From the IMG/VR virus record IMGVR_UViG_3300035670_000904, positions 1-31,277 of that record: 31,277 nucleotides of DNA; one strand, 5' to 3'. The notes beneath the pieces are model-generated. The model searched no databases, had not been told where the DNA came from, and saw only the letters and a list, made by a program, of their open reading frames with translations. Both the position numbers and the translations under genes were made by a program. Source of the stretch: a virus. Below, in pieces: positions 5,772 through 31,277 of this stretch (position 1 is the first letter of the stretch; each line of letters begins with the position of its first letter).

Positions 5772-6512
5772 ATGAACAATTTCGGAAAAATAAAATCCAA
5801 ATTTTTGAAAAAAATAACGGAGGCTTACGAGCAGGGGGGTTTAAAAAATAACACCAAGAACTTAATTAAAGTCGTTAAAAAGAATAAAGACTTTAAAGAA
5901 ATGTATTTGTTCTACGAAGAAATTGAAAACAAGTATTTCGACGATAAGGAAATTGCAAAGTTATATGTCGAAGAAATCGGTGGTATATTAAAACAAAAGG
6001 CAACAAAAGTTAAAGACTTCTGTGAAGTTATTAATATGTCAGTTTACGATACTCAAATCGATGAGAATGAATTATATGATTGTATAGACCAATTATTAGA
6101 AGAAGATACGTTGAAAAACATAGACAAGAAGGTAATTGCTAAGAAGAAATTAGTTGAGCATTTAACAACAAAAAAAGAAATTAAAGAATCTGAAAAATCT
6201 TCACACACAGCAAACGAAAATCTTTTACATGCCGTATTAGCAAATAATTTTAATGTACTTTATAATAACACATTGAATGAAGAACAAAAAAATGAGTTAA
6301 AAACTATTCTTTCATTGTCTAATGAGGAATTGGATGTGAAAACCGGTGAATTAAGAGAATCGATTTTGGGTAAAGTTGAAACTCTTTTATCTGAATCTAA
6401 AGAATCTGAATTCTCATCTAAATTAAATGACGTAAAAAAAGAGGTTAATAACATGTCAACCTCGAAATACAATTACTACAAACTATTACAATTAAAAGAA
6501 GGTCTTAATTAA
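5772..6512 (+). CDS. Putative prohead core/head protein in the gene 67/68 position
   Basis: This encodes 246 residues starting two bases after the portal stop, so it is almost certainly co-transcribed and coupled. It is Lys/Glu-rich and largely helical with no recognised domain. The first 17 residues form a basic helix ending in I-T-E followed by Ala (KITEAYE), a close match to a T4 gp21 cleavage site. In T4 the space between portal and protease holds the small core proteins gp67 and gp68, so a prohead core role is plausible by position. The last residues (KEGLN) are encoded inside a hairpin that also encodes the C-terminus of the convergent bS21 gene. Function is inferred, not shown. Confidence 0.75.
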   Translation: MNNFGKIKSKFLKKITEAYEQGGLKNNTKNLIKVVKKNKDFKEMYLFYEEIENKYFDDKEIAKLYVEEIGGILKQKATKVKDFCEVINMSVYDTQIDENELYDCIDQLLEEDTLKNIDKKVIAKKKLVEHLTTKKEIKESEKSSHTANENLLHAVLANNFNVLYNNTLNEEQKNELKTILSLSNEELDVKTGELRESILGKVETLLSESKESEFSSKLNDVKKEVNNMSTSKYNYYKLLQLKEGLN

Positions 6513-6523
6513 TCATTAAGACC
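6501..6523. terminator. Bidirectional terminator hairpin at convergent gene ends
   Basis: GGTCTTAAT (6501-6509) pairs perfectly with ATTAAGACC (6515-6523) across a 5-base loop. T-rich tracts follow on both strands (ATCTTTT on +, TTCTTTTAAT on -). The stop codons of the rightward gene (6510-6512) and of bS21 (6509-6511) lie within it, so one hairpin serves both genes. Confidence 0.8.
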
Positions 6524-6703
6524 ATCTTTTAACTTTTGAATGTAAATCGCCTTAAGTTTTTGAGTTCTTTTGATAACTGAAGGTTTAACAAATTCTTGTC
6601 TTTCTCTCAGTTTTTGTATTTGTTTAGTTTTTTGAACCTTACTTTTATAAACTTTAAGTGCGGTCTCAATGCTTTTCTGTTTAGTTACATCAATTATTAT
6701 CAT
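6509..6703 (-). CDS. rpsU: Ribosomal protein bS21 (phage-encoded)
   Basis: This encodes 64 residues, the short length seen in Bacteroidota bS21 rather than the 71 of E. coli. The sequence starts MIIIDVTKQKSIETALKVYK, continues with QKLRERQEFVKPSVIKR, and ends KLKAIYIQKLKDGLND. The arrangement of short beta strand, first helix with ALKxYK, LRxRQEFxKPSVxKR and KAxYIQ matches bS21. bS21 binds the 30S platform beside the 3' end of 16S rRNA. In flavobacteria that neighbourhood is known to hide the anti-Shine-Dalgarno, so a phage copy could bias or sustain translation on phage messages. The gene stands alone on the minus strand among rightward head genes, with its own TAnnTTTG-type promoter and a shared terminator, like a moron. 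It has no visible Shine-Dalgarno. Confidence 0.9.
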   Translation of the reverse strand: MIIIDVTKQKSIETALKVYKSKVQKTKQIQKLRERQEFVKPSVIKRTQKLKAIYIQKLKDGLND

Positions 6704-23746: not shown

Positions 23747-24973
23747 TTAATTGTTTATAATTGATTTAAAGAATTGTGTTCTGTTTTCAGAAACTGTTTT
23801 TAGTGAATATTTGTCTTTTACCGTTTCATATAATCTATTTCCTAAGTCCTCAGATAAATTGGGATTTTCAATGATTCGTTTCATATTTCTTGCCCAATCT
23901 TTATGATTTTTAGAAGGTTGTACTATAAGTGCATTTCCATGATTATTAAAAACTCCTTGGTCAACTGCAGATATTAAATCTAACGTGTAAGGTTTAACTC
24001 CACTAGCAATTACAGGTTTTTTATGAAAACCGGCTTCAATAATTTTTAATTGTGATTTATTACTATTAAACTCGTTTTCGAATAAAGGTGCCAATGATAC
24101 GTCAAAATTATTATAGTTTGTTGCGTAATCATTTATTTTTTTTGTCCACATTCTTCTATATGGTTTTTCATTATCATCATATGGAAGTTCACTAAACGAA
24201 AGAAGATATTTCTTATAATCCTCATCTAATACTTTATATTTGTCGGTAAACATGTTTTCATATTTAAACCAAACTGTTTCATATGGGAGGATTTCTCTTT
24301 TTCTTACTTGATTTGTAACTTTATCAAATTCAGTAACAGTACCCCTTAAATCAAAACCACAAAGTACAAATTGTGCTTTATCTTTAAAACTCGAATAGAT
24401 TGACGATATCCCACTTGTCATTAAGTCTAAATCGTGTAAGTGAGATGAACCACCTAACCATCCGAATCTTATTTTGTCCGATTTAGTGGGTTTTGGTTTG
24501 AATTGTTCTTCATCAGGATTGACAGCATTTGGAAAAACCTCAACATTTTTTACACCTAATTTTGTTTTTATTGTGTTTGCAAAATAGGGTGTTGTGGTTG
24601 TTATATAGTCAGAAAGTCTCAACATTTGGACTTTCTTTTCTGCAATTTTGTTTTGTTTTATTTGAAGATACATTGGATGTTTTTGGTCTACATTCCAAAA
24701 ATCGTCAATGTCCATGATTGTCTTAATCCCCTTTTCTTTTAACCAAGTTAATCGTTTAATGTTTTCATCATGACTTGTTTTGTGGATAAAACTATGGAAA
24801 ACAACAATATCGTAGTTTTCAAAAAATTTATCTTGATTAGGTACGTCGAATGAAATGTCGATATGGAAATCCTCAGAATAGTTGTCACCAATAAATTTAT
24901 ATGGGTCTAATATTCTAAATTTACCGACACCATGTTGGTCGGAAGGGATTGCAAGTATTCTAATTTTTGACAT
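23747..24973 (-). CDS. GT-B fold glycosyltransferase (family 4-like)
   Basis: This encodes 408 residues. The N-terminal half begins IRILAIPSDQHGVGKFRILD, with a HGVGKFR turn often seen in phage glycosyltransferases, and includes IKTIMDIDDFW, a possible acceptor-domain motif. The donor half includes KIRFGWLGGSSHLHDLDLM and the signature QLKIIEAGFHKKPVIASGV near residue 335, with Glu and the Pro-Val-Ile-Ala-Ser turn of family 4 enzymes. It is the largest of the three transferases here. A 53-base gap with an inverted repeat precedes it. The substrate is unknown; candidates are hypermodified DNA bases, capsid decoration or host envelope glycans. Confidence 0.87.
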   Translation of the reverse strand: MSKIRILAIPSDQHGVGKFRILDPYKFIGDNYSEDFHIDISFDVPNQDKFFENYDIVVFHSFIHKTSHDENIKRLTWLKEKGIKTIMDIDDFWNVDQKHPMYLQIKQNKIAEKKVQMLRLSDYITTTTPYFANTIKTKLGVKNVEVFPNAVNPDEEQFKPKPTKSDKIRFGWLGGSSHLHDLDLMTSGISSIYSSFKDKAQFVLCGFDLRGTVTEFDKVTNQVRKREILPYETVWFKYENMFTDKYKVLDEDYKKYLLSFSELPYDDNEKPYRRMWTKKINDYATNYNNFDVSLAPLFENEFNSNKSQLKIIEAGFHKKPVIASGVKPYTLDLISAVDQGVFNNHGNALIVQPSKNHKDWARNMKRIIENPNLSEDLGNRLYETVKDKYSLKTVSENRTQFFKSIINN

Positions 24974-25026: not shown

Positions 25027-25599
25027 TTATTTAGCCTTATTTACTCCTGTAATTTTACCTTTGAAAATGGAATCACCAACTTTTAAAACTAAATTTTCAT
25101 TAATTGTCGATGTTTGCTGTGCGGTTAATATTTGATTCAGTTTCTCGTCTAAGACTTTTCTAATGGTGTTTTCTATTAAAACTGAAATTGAATTCATATC
25201 AATATTTGAAACTGATGTGGTTTTTTGTTGTTGTGATGGTTTTGATTTTGAGGATACGCCTTCTTGTTCCATTAATCTCTTTGCACCTTTTACAAAGTCC
25301 ATGTCTAATGTATCATTTAAAGATATTTGTGGTATTGGGTTTTCCATCATCGCCTTTTTAATTGCATCAGGTAATTTAGAATTTTGAATCTTATCCATAT
25401 TAACGGTTGGATTTGATTTTACGTTTTGTGGTTGTTGAGGTTGTTGTGACTCTAATATGTCTTCTGTTGATGTTAAAAATGCGTCTCTATTTATGTTTCC
25501 AGTTTCGAATGAACCAGAATCCACTTTATTCATTACTTTTTTTGCTTGTACTAATTTGTGCATTAAATCATTTTCAGTTATCGCTCCTTTTTGTGACAT
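25027..25599 (-). CDS. Uncharacterised Gln-rich putative structural protein
   Basis: This encodes 190 residues. The sequence alternates helices with polar Gln/Ser/Lys-rich linkers (ESQQPQQPQNVKSN and KSKPSQQQKTTSVSN). A conserved-looking segment LPDAIKKAMMENPIPQISL occupies the middle, followed by a helix ending RLMEQE. The C-terminus is a helix (ISVLIENTIRKVLDEKLNQI) and a beta pair (ENLVLKVGDSIFKGKITGV). This build is common in phage head or neck proteins, but I know no named family. It lies within the leftward late block, 26 bases after the WYL-like gene. Confidence 0.7.
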   Translation of the reverse strand: MSQKGAITENDLMHKLVQAKKVMNKVDSGSFETGNINRDAFLTSTEDILESQQPQQPQNVKSNPTVNMDKIQNSKLPDAIKKAMMENPIPQISLNDTLDMDFVKGAKRLMEQEGVSSKSKPSQQQKTTSVSNIDMNSISVLIENTIRKVLDEKLNQILTAQQTSTINENLVLKVGDSIFKGKITGVNKAK

Positions 25600-25625: not shown

Positions 25626-26531
25626 TTAATTTAACAGTAACATTAAAGATTTAATTCTATTAATATTTTCTTGTAATGGTTCTGTTTGTGTGGGCTCGGT
25701 TTGTGTTGGTTCCGTCTGAATTGTCTCGTCAGATACGGTAATACCGTTTTTAGATAAGATATTTGATAATTCATTATTTGATGATATCTCAAATCTTCTT
25801 CTCGTTCCCGAACCTGGATTTAGATTACCTCCCACCTCTTTTTGTGAATTAACCCATTCGTCTTGTTTTAATTTATACAAATCTTTCACAGCATTTAAAT
25901 AATCATTTGTGTTGATTATTTTATTTCCGTTGACATCTTTAATGTTTGTTTGTAATTTTTTAAATATATCACCTACGAAATCTTTTGGTCGTTCTTCAGG
26001 AGTTACGGATGGTTTATCATCTGTTTTAGGTTGTGGTAATACTTGTTTAGTGGGTTGTGGTTTCACCTCAGGTTCTGATTTGGTTATTTGTTGTGTTGGT
26101 TTAACCTCTGGTGTCTTACCCCAATCAGTTGTAACATATGTAACTGACATTGGTCCACTTTTTGATTCCTCCCCTTCTTTATATCCCGGTCTTTTATTAT
26201 CGAATGTTTCATCATTCATGATTTGAAGATTACTCATTCTATTCACCATAAATGTTCTCCATCCTGTTTTGGTAAATCCTTTTTTGGATGTTGATGGTGG
26301 TTGTACAAACGCCCTAACGATTAGGTTACCCTTTTTACTTAACCCTAAAGCAACCACCTCCGCCCTAACTCTAACACCTGGTTTAACACTTTCCTTTTCA
26401 GGTGATTTTGGACCACTATAATAAAATGTAATAGGATTCCTATTGGTTATTGCGTCAACCAATGGTTTTGTTTTTCTACCTTTTAAAAAATCCTGTTCTT
26501 CAAGTATATTGAAGATTATTTTATTAAACAT
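25626..26531 (-). CDS. Tagged protein with a WYL-like domain
   Basis: From the ATG at 26531, one base after the upstream stop, it encodes 301 residues; a longer frame to 26579 lies inside the upstream gene. Residues 1-12 (MFNKIIFNILEE) look like a T4 capsid-targeting peptide ending in L-E-E. Residues about 33-108 (PITFYYSGPKSPEKESVKPG, RVRAEVVALGLSKKGNLIVR, then GWRTFMVNRMSNLQI) resemble a WYL-type beta-barrel, which in bacteria binds ligands or nucleic acid. Next comes a Pro/Thr/Lys linker and a helix. The end has three TEPTQ-type repeats, then LQE and the tag-like helix NINRIKSLMLLLN. With possible tags at both ends it is the best candidate for an internal head protein. The WYL assignment is by eye. 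Confidence 0.72.
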   Translation of the reverse strand: MFNKIIFNILEEQDFLKGRKTKPLVDAITNRNPITFYYSGPKSPEKESVKPGVRVRAEVVALGLSKKGNLIVRAFVQPPSTSKKGFTKTGWRTFMVNRMSNLQIMNDETFDNKRPGYKEGEESKSGPMSVTYVTTDWGKTPEVKPTQQITKSEPEVKPQPTKQVLPQPKTDDKPSVTPEERPKDFVGDIFKKLQTNIKDVNGNKIINTNDYLNAVKDLYKLKQDEWVNSQKEVGGNLNPGSGTRRRFEISSNNELSNILSKNGITVSDETIQTEPTQTEPTQTEPLQENINRIKSLMLLLN

Positions 26532-26532
26532 C

Positions 26533-27171
26533 TTAAAAATCTGGGTATGTTTTTGTGTTACCGTATTTATTTCGTGCAATTGTTTCTATTCTATTATTAA
26601 TATCGACTATTGAACCGACATTATTTTGATTATCACCTTTTCCCTTTTCGTCACCATCTGATAATGCATTTGGATGAATTAAGGAATACTCATTATTATA
26701 ATTATATTGATTTCTTCCCATGTTATCTAAACGACTATTAATATCGGTTAAACTACCAACTGACCCATTATCACTTAAACCCTTACCTTTCTCATCACCA
26801 TCTGAAATAGCATTAGGATTATTTACACCATAACCTTTATTTTGGTTATATGTGTTTCTTGAAAGTAATTCGTTTCTATTTGAGATGTCCACGGAACTAC
26901 CGATTTCATTTTTACCTTTCTCGTCACCATCTGAAATCACATTAGGGTGGTTTGAACTATAACCATTGTCATTGGTGTATGTGTTTCTTGTTAAATTTGA
27001 TATTCTATTTTGTATATCTACAGAACTACCAATTTCATTTTTACCCTTTTCATCTCCGTCCGATATTGCATTAGGGTGGTTTGAACCGTAAGTATCAGTT
27101 GTTTTATATGAATTACGTGTGATGTGTTCGGTTCTAAATTTTTCCGCTAATATTTCTAATTGTGTTGGCAT
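26533..27171 (-). CDS. Tandem-repeat protein with DGDEKGK motifs
   Basis: This encodes 212 residues: an 18-residue helix, four tandem repeats of 43-48 residues (19-61, 62-104, 105-152, 153-199) and a partial fifth unit. Each repeat reads RNxYxxxxxY, then (H/N)PNA(I/L)SDGDEKGK, a Gly/Ser turn, VDI or TDI, NR and a short helix; the second copy has V for A. The DGDEKG core could be a metal-binding turn, D-x-D-x-x-G, of calcium-loop type. Repeats differ in codons, so the expansion is not recent. It is spaced one base from each neighbour in the late operon and is probably a virion protein, perhaps with one repeat per binding site. The family name is unknown to me. Confidence 0.75.
   Translation of the reverse strand: MPTQLEILAEKFRTEHITRNSYKTTDTYGSNHPNAISDGDEKGKNEIGSSVDIQNRISNLTRNTYTNDNGYSSNHPNVISDGDEKGKNEIGSSVDISNRNELLSRNTYNQNKGYGVNNPNAISDGDEKGKGLSDNGSVGSLTDINSRLDNMGRNQYNYNNEYSLIHPNALSDGDEKGKGDNQNNVGSIVDINNRIETIARNKYGNTKTYPDF
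26575..27117 (-). repeat. Four in-frame tandem repeats within the DGDEKGK gene
   Basis: Units are 129, 129, 144 and 141 bases, all multiples of three. The most conserved stretch encodes PNAISDGDEKGK. Synonymous differences between units show that selection acts on the protein, and there are no unique spacers as in a CRISPR array. Confidence 0.85.
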
Positions 27172-27172
27172 A

Positions 27173-27667
27173 TTAATTCATTAATTTTTTCATTCTTTCT
27201 ACTTGTTCAAAAAGGTTGAACGAGGTTATTGGTGTTATTGACGATTTATGTGAGTTACTTTTAACTAAATTTGTTGGTATTTTAAAACTAAATCTTTTTG
27301 TATGTTTTTTTAAGTGTGAATTTTTTCTTTCTCCTGTAATACCACCAATTTCGTCGGCTTGTTTTCTTGAATCTTTAATATTACTCACTAAATCTCTTTC
27401 ACCCTTTAAGAATTGTTTCGCCCATTTTTCCATAACGTCACCACCAGATAAATCATATTTTAATTTATCGTTTATTTTATCCATAGACTGTAGGTCATGG
27501 ATAATTCTCTTTAATTGTCCGTATTTTACTTTCTTATCCTGTAATAATTTTTTGGCACGATTAAGTCCGTCTTTATGTTCACCATTAAGACTAACAACAG
27601 TATGGTTGATTTTATCCAAAACATTCTGGGGGATGTCAAAAATTCTATGTTTAAGGTCTTTATTCAT
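27173..27667 (-). CDS. Basic helical protein with C-terminal tag-like helix
   Basis: This encodes 164 residues, Lys-rich and mostly helical (LKHRIFDIPQNVLDKINHTV, then LNRAKKLLQDKKVKYGQLKR). The first half resembles regions of small phage structural proteins that bind DNA or the head core. A basic segment (GERKNSHLKKHTKRFSFKIP) follows. The final residues FNLFEQVERMKKLMN contain L-F-E, an [LI]xE site, and the RMKxLM motif shared with the protease, scaffold and WYL-like protein. It overlaps the preceding gene by eight bases. I suggest an internal or core-associated protein; this is inference. Confidence 0.72.
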   Translation of the reverse strand: MNKDLKHRIFDIPQNVLDKINHTVVSLNGEHKDGLNRAKKLLQDKKVKYGQLKRIIHDLQSMDKINDKLKYDLSGGDVMEKWAKQFLKGERDLVSNIKDSRKQADEIGGITGERKNSHLKKHTKRFSFKIPTNLVKSNSHKSSITPITSFNLFEQVERMKKLMN

Positions 27668-28457
27668 TATCTTTTAGATGACTTATAACGTCATTGATTG
27701 TTAAATTATGACTTTTAAGTGAATTTTTTAAAGATTTAATTTGTTTTTTTATAATTGGGTCCACTTCAGTTATTTCATCATTTTTAGTCACAAAATCAGA
27801 ATCTTTTGATTTTTGTGAAAGAATCGATTCAATGAATTCTTCAATAAATTTTTTTGGGTTTTCAACCAATCTAACCTTATCATCGGGTAATTTTTCATCG
27901 TAACCCATTTTATTTAAACGCTCTTCAGCCTCTTTATCGTTTAAACCCAATTCATTTTTGAAATAATCTTCCGCTTCCTCCTTATCTTTATCTTTACCTA
28001 ATGTTTCCTCGTATCCTAAAGCGTCCTTCATTGCAATTTCCAAAATCTTACTTTTTGTTAATTGATTCGATTCGGCCCAATATCTTAACGAAGTGTGTGT
28101 ACCATGTACCCCATGAATTCCCATTGCACCTGCAGCGTTGTGTACAACCTCGTCTGAAGTCTTTTTTTGTGTTACACCTTTTGAGTTGAAGTTGGTGGGT
28201 TTTTTACTTCTCATTATATTACCCTTACCGTCTACAATCTCATCAAACTGTAATTCTGTTTGATTTTTTTCTTTTTTCTCCACTTTATCAGGGATTTCGT
28301 CATAATTGGTTTTATCGGAAAATTCTTTAGCCCATTTACCCCATTTCTTTTTTTCTTTTTTACTTGAACCCTTTTCATTGGCCTTCGCATAGAAGAATCT
28401 TTGTTGTGATTTTGAGGCAAATTTCTCCTCAATTACCTGTTTTATAAAATTATTCAT
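27660..28457 (-). CDS. Tagged protein with SKxQQRFF motif
   Basis: This encodes 265 residues and is the first gene of the long leftward block. Residues 1-11 (MNNFIKQVIEE) look like a capsid-targeting peptide with an I-E-E site. KFASKSQQRFFYAKANEKGS then KKWGKWAKEFSDKT (residues about 12-50) is a motif I know from many uncharacterised phage proteins. The middle has GAMGIHGVHGTHTSLRYWAE and DALGYEETLGKDKDKEEAED; the rest is charged and helical, ending in ISHLKDNE. A TATTTATA motif lies 16 bases upstream. I infer a head or internal protein from the tag and context. No catalytic motif is recognised. Confidence 0.75.
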   Translation of the reverse strand: MNNFIKQVIEEKFASKSQQRFFYAKANEKGSSKKEKKKWGKWAKEFSDKTNYDEIPDKVEKKEKNQTELQFDEIVDGKGNIMRSKKPTNFNSKGVTQKKTSDEVVHNAAGAMGIHGVHGTHTSLRYWAESNQLTKSKILEIAMKDALGYEETLGKDKDKEEAEDYFKNELGLNDKEAEERLNKMGYDEKLPDDKVRLVENPKKFIEEFIESILSQKSKDSDFVTKNDEITEVDPIIKKQIKSLKNSLKSHNLTINDVISHLKDNE

Positions 28458-28473
28458 CTAAATACAGTTTTTA

Positions 28474-28481
28474 TATAAATA
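28474..28481 (-). promoter_or_regulatory. TATTTATA motif driving the long leftward block
   Basis: An exact minus-strand TATTTATA lies 16 bases upstream of the ATG at 28457. It forms an outward-facing pair with the plus-strand copy at 28499-28506, the clearest evidence for the orientation of this motif. Confidence 0.7.
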
Positions 28482-30170: not shown

Positions 30171-31277
30171 ATGGCAAATTTAAAAATTTCAGAATTACCC
30201 GAATATACCGGAAACACGGACGGAATATATTTGGTCATTGATTCATCAGACTTATCTGAAACATATAAAATAAGAAAAGAAAACCTAATAGGAGAATCGA
30301 GCACCTCTGGTTCAAGTGGAACGTCAGGTACATCAGGTTCGTCGGGTACTAGCGGTTCTAGTGGTTCGTCAGGTATTGATGGGACGTCAGGTACATCAGG
30401 TATTGATGGAACTTCAGGAACTAGTGGTGAATCAGGTTCATCAGGAACAAGTGGTACCTCGGGAACTAGTGGCGAATCAGGTTCATCAGGAACAAGTGGT
30501 ACCTCGGGAATTGATGGGACGTCAGGTACTTCGGGTATCAATGGAACTTCAGGAACTAGTGGTGAAGATGGAACAAGTGGTACTTCGGGTATCAATGGAA
30601 CTTCAGGAACTAGTGGTGAATCAGGTACCTCGGGTTCGAGTGGTACCTCGGGTTCGAGTGGTACAACCGGTTCAAGTGGAACCTCGGGAGTGGACGGGGT
30701 AAGTGGCACTTCAGGTACAAGTGGAATTAACGGCACTTCGGGAACGTCTGGAGAATCCGGTAGTTCAGGTACTAGTGGTACTTCAGGAACAAGTGGAACA
30801 TCAGGTTCTTCGGGTAGTTCAGGTACTAGTATTGACTTATCTACATCATCTCTTGGAGATTTGGGTGATGTATTTACATATACAGGAACCACATTATCGG
30901 ACGGATATCAATTATCTTGGAATGACACAACAGATGAGTGGGAACCAAGACCATCAGCATCACAAAAAGGTGTAATTAGATTATTCGTTTCGGCAGCTAG
31001 AAGTAATACTGCTGTTTTTTATTTTAACTCCGTAACAAGAACGGCAGATGCTTCTTCGAGTCCTGTTTATGATAGTGCTTTTATGGTAACAACAAGTTTA
31101 CTGAATAATGTTACAGTTTATTTAAGACAAGATGGGAACTCATCAAATAGTGTTAGAATAGATATATTTAAAAATGCAGACGGGACAGACTTCTCGTCCG
31201 CTTCAACTATTGCAAATCAAACAACTACTATGGGATTAAATACTGTTAGTACGTTTCAATTTACTGGATTAACATTA
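30171..31277 (+). CDS. Collagen-like fibre protein (3' end outside window)
   Basis: The frame is open to the last base, so only the first 369 residues are seen. Residues 1-43 (LKISELPEYTGNTDGIYLVI and so on) are the short 'ISELP' start typical of phage fibre proteins. Residues about 44-220 are almost pure Gly-X-Y triplets, mostly GTS and GSS with interspersed GID, GIN, GES, GED and GVD, as in phage collagen-like stalks; Pro is absent, so stability would come from trimer packing and Thr/Ser. After it comes a linker (LGDLGDVFTYTGTTLSDGYQ, then LSWNDTTDEWEPRPS) and a globular beta region (VIRLFVSAARSNTAVFYF). A trimeric tail or head fibre is likely. Long open frames on the other strand here are by-products of the repeat. 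Confidence 0.85.
   Translation, partial: MANLKISELPEYTGNTDGIYLVIDSSDLSETYKIRKENLIGESSTSGSSGTSGTSGSSGTSGSSGSSGIDGTSGTSGIDGTSGTSGESGSSGTSGTSGTSGESGSSGTSGTSGIDGTSGTSGINGTSGTSGEDGTSGTSGINGTSGTSGESGTSGSSGTSGSSGTTGSSGTSGVDGVSGTSGTSGINGTSGTSGESGSSGTSGTSGTSGTSGSSGSSGTSIDLSTSSLGDLGDVFTYTGTTLSDGYQLSWNDTTDEWEPRPSASQKGVIRLFVSAARSNTAVFYFNSVTRTADASSSPVYDSAFMVTTSLLNNVTVYLRQDGNSSNSVRIDIFKNADGTDFSSASTIANQTTTMGLNTVSTFQFTGLTL
30300..30830 (+). repeat. Triplet-coding repeat tract with nested tandem duplications
   Basis: The tract encodes Gly-X-Y triplets in 9-base units. Longer, nearly identical blocks are nested in it: a 45-base period at 30417-30461 and 30462-30506 (a single mismatch), and a 54-base period with 42 identical bases at 30525-30566 and 30579-30620. 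All periods are multiples of nine, so changes in copy number keep the frame. Confidence 0.9.

Follow-up and report, generated by a model that had tools for sequence, protein, structure and literature searches.

The described systems closest to the locus analysed here include, besides the GIY-YIG family T5orf172 treated below, the internal and capsid-targeted head proteins of T4-type phages, and the bS21-encoding phages of lake Bacteroidetes. We know of no T4 internal proteins described as repeats, and the site of the T4 prohead protease has the form L/I-x-E. As set out in two reports, T4-type prohead proteases cut after Glu, and the capsid targeting sequence is 10 residues long (PMC9026906, PMC5694885). 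For the bS21-encoding lake phages, a further report describes a bS21 gene that lies between portal and prohead protease, on the reverse strand (PMC9723584). The DNA analysed here, hereafter the window, is a 31,277-nucleotide stretch of the virus record IMGVR_UViG_3300035670_000904 from IMG/VR, and the subject of this study is a repeat protein encoded on its minus strand, whose unnamed family occurs across many uncultured large T4-like phages.

A reading made from the sequence alone had described four tandem units with three conserved motifs, and this description is largely borne out. The units are real, with lengths of 43, 43, 48 and 47 residues when each is counted from RNxY, a motif kept in all four units and again in the half unit after unit 4 (13 residues, RNKYGNTKTYPDF, with YPDF at its end). 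Both [VT]DIxxR and SDGDEKGK are present in 4/4 units; of the longer proposed motif PNA[IL]SDGDEKGK, the PNA[IL] part is kept in three units only, unit 2 having PNVI. At offset 43 the protein matches itself at 57 residues, as against at most 30 in 2000 shuffles, each scored at its best offset between 30 and 59. Translation of frame 1 on the plus strand of the same interval meets many stops. Against four relatives, dN/dS is about 0.15-0.19 (dN 0.185-0.256, dS 1.23-1.39), which indicates that the protein is conserved; the gene is under purifying selection. Coordinates are collected in Table 1, in which the +1 gene is taken to start at ATG 26531, not at TTG 26579.

Table 1. Features of the repeat-protein locus, in window coordinates.
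Feature	Position	Strand	Description
Repeat protein gene	26533..27171	minus	212 aa plus stop
N-terminal segment, residues 1-18	27118..27171	minus	predicted helix 4-19; R(x6)N register as in unit helices
Unit 1, residues 19-61	26989..27117	minus	43 aa
Unit 2, residues 62-104	26860..26988	minus	43 aa
Unit 3, residues 105-152	26716..26859	minus	48 aa
Unit 4, residues 153-199	26575..26715	minus	47 aa
C-terminal half unit RNKY...YPDF, residues 200-212	26536..26574	minus	
-2 gene	27660..28457	minus	265 aa; N-terminal VIEE/KFASKSQQ-type segment
-1 gene	27173..27667	minus	164 aa; C-terminal LFE/QVERMKKLMN-type tag
+1 gene	25626..26531	minus	WYL-like domain, C-terminal tag
+2 gene	25027..25599	minus	190 aa, conserved unknown
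+3 gene	23747..24973	minus	glycosyltransferase (phrog_7162)
TATTTATA box (TATAAATA on plus)	28474..28481	minus	upstream of repeat-gene operon

Relatives were collected from IMG/VR by a single-sequence search, which returned 8, and by an alignment search, which returned 271 candidate stretches, 206 of them relatives, of which 80 were kept; a DGDEKGK pattern scan yielded at least some further contigs among the matches listed. The resulting family set of 86 distinct ORFs, each with at least two GD..G[KR] cores, derives from loci selected by score or core motif, so that its counts are no census and the invariance of the core is partly selection. Comparison of repeat number among relatives, which the sequence-only reading had put forward, proved informative: orthologues carry 1, 2, 3, 4, 6 or 14 units at a constant syntenic place. 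Complete proteins have 2 units (124-125 aa), 3 units (171-184 aa), 4 units (207-230 aa), 6 units (313-326 aa) or 14 units (729-731 aa), with length used in place of counting patterns that were off by one or two in L033, L047, L065 and L112, and one-unit proteins of about 79-98 aa were picked up by the unit profile. When protein pairs more than 85% alike were left out, the closest unit of another protein had the same index for 151 of 188 units from 47 four-unit proteins and for 87 of 102 units from 17 six-unit proteins, which indicates that the units are position-specific and not constantly homogenised; a unit was nearer to one of its own protein in 22/188 and 14/102 cases, respectively. Exactly one match to the repeat profile was found in 15 of 16 large records, the sixteenth (L155) having entered through the DNA pattern only, and 14 of the 16 encode a T4-type major capsid protein.

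Across 319 distinct units, G34, D38 and R42 are invariant (1.0) and unforced by the pattern used to extract units, which forces or restricts N2, Y4, Y10, A17, D22 and G25. The R13-N20 spacing of the N-terminal segment recurs at R56-N63, R99-N106, R147-N154 and R194-N201, and the R and N positions of these five segments are invariant or at least 90% conserved among 25 aligned four-unit members. Because the R(x6)N spacing of the units is found in the N-terminal segment too, the protein is better described as n+1 helix segments joined by n loops. Structure prediction of the array, also proposed beforehand, was informative in part: an AlphaFold2 model of the window protein, computed with 25 sequences, gives a helix at each of the R(x6)N segments, with the rest at low confidence and no globular fold. 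In this model, whose confidence is poor (mean pLDDT 49, pTM 0.18), the helices span residues 4-19, 50-62, 93-105, 141-153 and 188-201, and the remainder forms loops or single strand residues; a one-unit protein was given two helices (mean pLDDT 57, pTM 0.22). The repeat protein thus has the look of a flexible chain made up of short helices that would serve in binding.

The sequence-only reading had suggested that the D-x-D-x-x-G core, present in all four window units, could bind calcium, and this suggestion is not supported by the composition of the loop. In EF-hand and DxDxDG loops, position 5 is a ligand and carries an acidic or Asn/Ser side chain. In the 319 distinct units, however, position 5 is Lys in 77%, with Leu, Arg and Phe next most frequent, and the first acidic position is Asp in 77%; position 3 is Asp in 100%, as forced by the extraction pattern. 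Of the five Pfam families to which 25 members gave matches at E<=0.1, none is a calcium-binding one, and the sole PDB match of the family profile was a flagellar rod protein at E=0.99. One one-unit protein had serine-aspartate repeat protein D (SdrD) as its best PDB match, a member of a group with calcium-binding repeats, but at E=0.23. A calcium-binding repeat protein of EF-hand, RTX or thrombospondin type 3 kind is thus, in our judgement, very improbable.

A library match to the GIY-YIG family T5orf172 (PF10544) raised the question of degenerate nuclease repeats. It was obtained for 14 of 25 members at E<=0.1, and at least two exceed the 20-bit Pfam cut-off (the best match, 4.4e-7, and L043, 1.7e-6 and 28.9 bits), a short IGSxxDIxxR stretch fitting part of the profile. 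However, the matches seen in detail span 33-41 of 101 positions, about a third of the domain, and the layout is not that of a nuclease; the window protein scores 15.3 bits, under the cut-off, and neither the 14-unit protein nor any of seven one- or two-unit proteins matches. With only 43-48 aa, a unit could not accommodate the domain, and the conserved Tyr of the GIY-YIG family's YIG motif is not kept, the residue before the conserved IG commonly being S, K, N or Q. To our knowledge, T5orf172 is not a repeat family. A profile match to a characterised repeat family had been named beforehand as what would refute the sequence-only reading; the T5orf172 match, being partial and not to such a family, was not taken as a refutation, and we consider degenerate GIY-YIG nuclease repeats extremely improbable. 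Other libraries gave scattered results: PHROGs matches were weak and fell on differing unknown families, the strongest (1.1e-5) being that of a six-unit member, matches to NCBIfam (best 3.1e-5) and to further Pfam families disagreed among members, as expected of low-complexity repeats, and PADLOC had no match for the window protein at E<=0.01. The strings SDGDEKGKG, DGDEKGK, NALSDGDE and GDEKGKGE were not found in the papers searched, and a search at listing level on phage tandem-repeat virion proteins returned nothing relevant. The earlier statement that no characterised family with this repeat is known is supported: neither the family libraries nor the PDB nor the 50,697 phage records searched contained a convincing relative.

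In those phage records, tblastn with P0001, L113, L136 and L178 (low-complexity filter on) gave either no match or E>=0.8, and the -1 and +2 proteins of the window had no match. Four of the records nearest by capsid protein gave no match to profile A2, the positive control belonging to a separate large-record search only, and the unit profile gave nothing below E=1 in the regions around WYL-like matches of two huge-phage records (E about 1e-3) and of Flavobacterium phage MaF61 (E 0.3). A collection of host genomes from 84,980 species contained one relative, flanked by -1- and +1-type genes; its contig, of 25.7 kb, had been assigned to the bin of a Bacteroidota metagenome-assembled genome. The window itself has the layout reported in PMC9723584: between its portal and prohead protease genes, the minus strand has a match to Ribosomal_S21 (bS21) at 6509-6703 (4.2e-12). 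The parts of that report consulted make no mention of the repeat described here. A Bacteroidota host is likely for the window phage on these sequence features, and the large T4-like phages that carry the repeat protein probably infect Bacteroidota.

The gene order around the repeat gene is tightly kept. Among 74 anchored of 75 loci, window included, the -1 family lies directly upstream and the +1 family directly downstream in 73 each, and the -2 and +2 families are at their places in 72 and 70. One-unit loci were examined in 17 cases (16 with a complete gene, plus L098, where it is cut at the locus edge); in the 13 rows listed, some from loci closely related to one another, the upstream neighbour is always of the -1 family, weakly so in L160 (9e-5), and the downstream gene is of the +1 family in all 11 that have one. 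This flanking indicates that one-unit and many-unit genes share one orthologous place. The +1 product is a WYL-domain protein (2.9e-6 in L160, above the Pfam cut-off; 0.02 for the window copy), and in the distant relative L126 the -1 protein carries a fused NUDIX hydrolase domain (L126:8338-9039).

A putative promoter element connects this operon with virion genes. The window holds nine matches to TATAAATA, where chance alone predicts 5.4; nine is also reached in 8 of 100 shuffles, so the count by itself is not unusual. All nine, read as sense-strand TATTTATA, lie within about 40 bases before a gene, at 2109, 3937, 7248, 8014, 14475, 22671, 28474, 28499 and 30150, just before genes that head transcription units: terminase, portal, protease, a scaffold-position gene (8041) without a match in family searches, 14460, PhoH, 28457, 28512 and 30171. 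The last of these (30171-31277, plus strand) encodes a collagen-like GTSGTSG repeat protein that continues beyond the window end. When distinct upstream stretches are compared between loci, the box stands before the -2 gene in 49/62, before PhoH in 27/59, before the +2 gene in 17/63, before the +1 gene in 1/70, and before the repeat and -1 genes in 0/68 each. With a box before the -2 gene and none before the repeat and -1 genes, transcription of the repeat gene probably begins at the start of the operon, 28457. TATTTATA is the reverse of the T4 late box TATAAATA. The sequence-only reading had placed the gene in a late operon; the operon's box is indeed common to virion genes, and its late timing is what we infer from the box as a candidate late promoter. 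Production of the repeat protein thus seems to coincide with that of virion gene products.

Operon membership alone is no proof of a virion role, since a glycosyltransferase and a dUTPase, both unexpected in virions, are among the operon mates, along with the WYL-domain protein. These companions, and the acidic (pI 5.1), N/S/G/D-rich chain, would suit a disordered protein with a role in regulation or host takeover, placed in this operon without being part of the virion. Against such a non-virion protein, which we hold to be rather unlikely, stand the close syntenic link to tagged genes among distant phages and a promoter-like box common to structural genes.

The tagged neighbours named in the sequence-only reading are supported: the -2, -1 and +1 proteins have end peptides bearing prohead-protease-like [LIV]xE sites. 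Within 25626-28457 these stand at the N end in the -2 protein and at the C end in the -1 and +1 proteins, although C-terminal tags would be an unusual targeting signal. Counting kin as separate members, so that the numbers are not independent, we found that 62/73 distinct -2 proteins and 60/71 +1 proteins have [LIV]xE within their first 14 residues, and that 68/69 -1 and 68/71 +1 proteins have it at the C end; ASK stands near the start of 49/73 distinct -2 proteins, and all 49 carry the site near the N end. As controls, the +2 family and a further 13 families of neighbours gave mostly low figures, 0 to 33% at the N end, save cluster 16, and 0 to 35% in the first C-end test; a looser C-end test gave 39/60 for PhoH, 19/48 for cluster 14 and 24/63 for dUTPase. 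Cluster 16 (about 965 aa, DNA-polymerase-like by eye) has the site in the first 14 residues of 30/33 members. By eye, such a site is also seen near the start of five T4-like capsid proteins: those of the window, immuto, Mel-JY01, LR756508 and RM378. Elsewhere, WYL-domain proteins at L160:4455-4823 and L131:1904-2761 have an N-terminal segment ending in ILLE or LLE that resembles a capsid targeting peptide, and in the 636-642 kb uncultured phages L213 and L214 several ORFs start with similar MKxxKxF-type peptides.

With neighbours that look like head-internal cargo, the repeat protein might itself be such cargo, its own N-terminal targeting peptide (MATQLEILAE/K type) being cut by the prohead protease and the protein ejected with DNA like the T4 internal proteins. 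An LxE site near residue 10 does resemble a T4-type capsid targeting sequence, and in unaligned tests 48/74 distinct members have [LIV]xE within their first 14 residues, more than in most control families, with 0/74 at the C end. At its aligned place, however, the site is kept in only 50/74 anchored members, four more members being unanchored, its Glu being replaced by Asp, Asn, Gly, Gln and others, and a permissive test of 14 one-unit proteins found some [LIV]xE upstream of the loop in 10, at no fixed place. The R(x6)N register common to the N-terminal segment and the internal helices, moreover, explains the conservation of that segment without a targeting role. We consider this cargo reading unlikely.

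The reading that we favour, tentatively and with somewhat less than even confidence, is a late, head-associated, multivalent tether that binds many identical sites. It draws together the repeat architecture, orthology through synteny, the shared box, a single copy in 15/16 large records, purifying selection, position-specific units and the lack of a confidently predicted globular fold. The protein, encoded once per phage, would act late as an accessory of the virion head, or of head assembly, in large T4-like phages of Bacteroidota. As an extended chain of n+1 short amphipathic helices ([V/T]DIxxR....[RK]NxY) and n polar loops with SDGDEKGKG, it would probably dock each helix onto a single site of a multimeric partner that offers many identical ones, most likely in the lattice or core of the head, and its valency, from 1 to 14 units, would drift freely between lineages. 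Head location is suggested by the neighbours and the promoter-like box, and docking by a repeated conserved helix without a globular fold. Counting against the tether are the incomplete conservation of the protein's own [LIV]xE site at its aligned place, which makes a cleaved peptide no more than a putative means of delivery to the head, the operon mates not expected in virions, the missing TATTTATA box before the capsid gene of the window and the poor confidence of the AlphaFold2 model.

A capsid-size ruler with a simple rule was rejected on comparisons that included 35 hand-picked loci, with L145 and L161 (locus edge) and L050 and L075 (pattern overcount) set aside: contigs of 296-299 kb have one unit (L186, L100), one of 251 kb has two (L181) and one of 311 kb has four (L068), sizes that are lower bounds on genomes, as contigs may be fragments. 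Matched repeats in a neighbour were likewise rejected, as median neighbour lengths do not increase with unit number. A unit number that tracks neither neighbour length nor, in any simple way, contig size points to a partner with many identical sites and not to a ruler. Going further, the protein may be a virion staple, a disordered chain of docking helices lacing the head lattice or core, its valency ranging from 1 to 14 by whole-unit duplication between fixed neighbours. We think this staple quite unlikely; if true, it would be a new class, in Bacteroidota giant phages.

In summary, uncultured large phages share a conserved gene family which no searched family library resolves. Its valency series of 1, 2, 3, 4, 6 and 14 at one orthologous locus makes the part played by multivalency in phage assembly directly testable, and the unit profile is a usable marker of this phage lineage. 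Set beside the internal and capsid-targeted head proteins of T4, with which it was compared by features, the repeat protein differs in having no consistently kept cleavage site of its own; it resembles them in that its neighbour genes encode short end peptides with cleavage-like sites and in that it possibly belongs to the same expression class as the T4 internal proteins.
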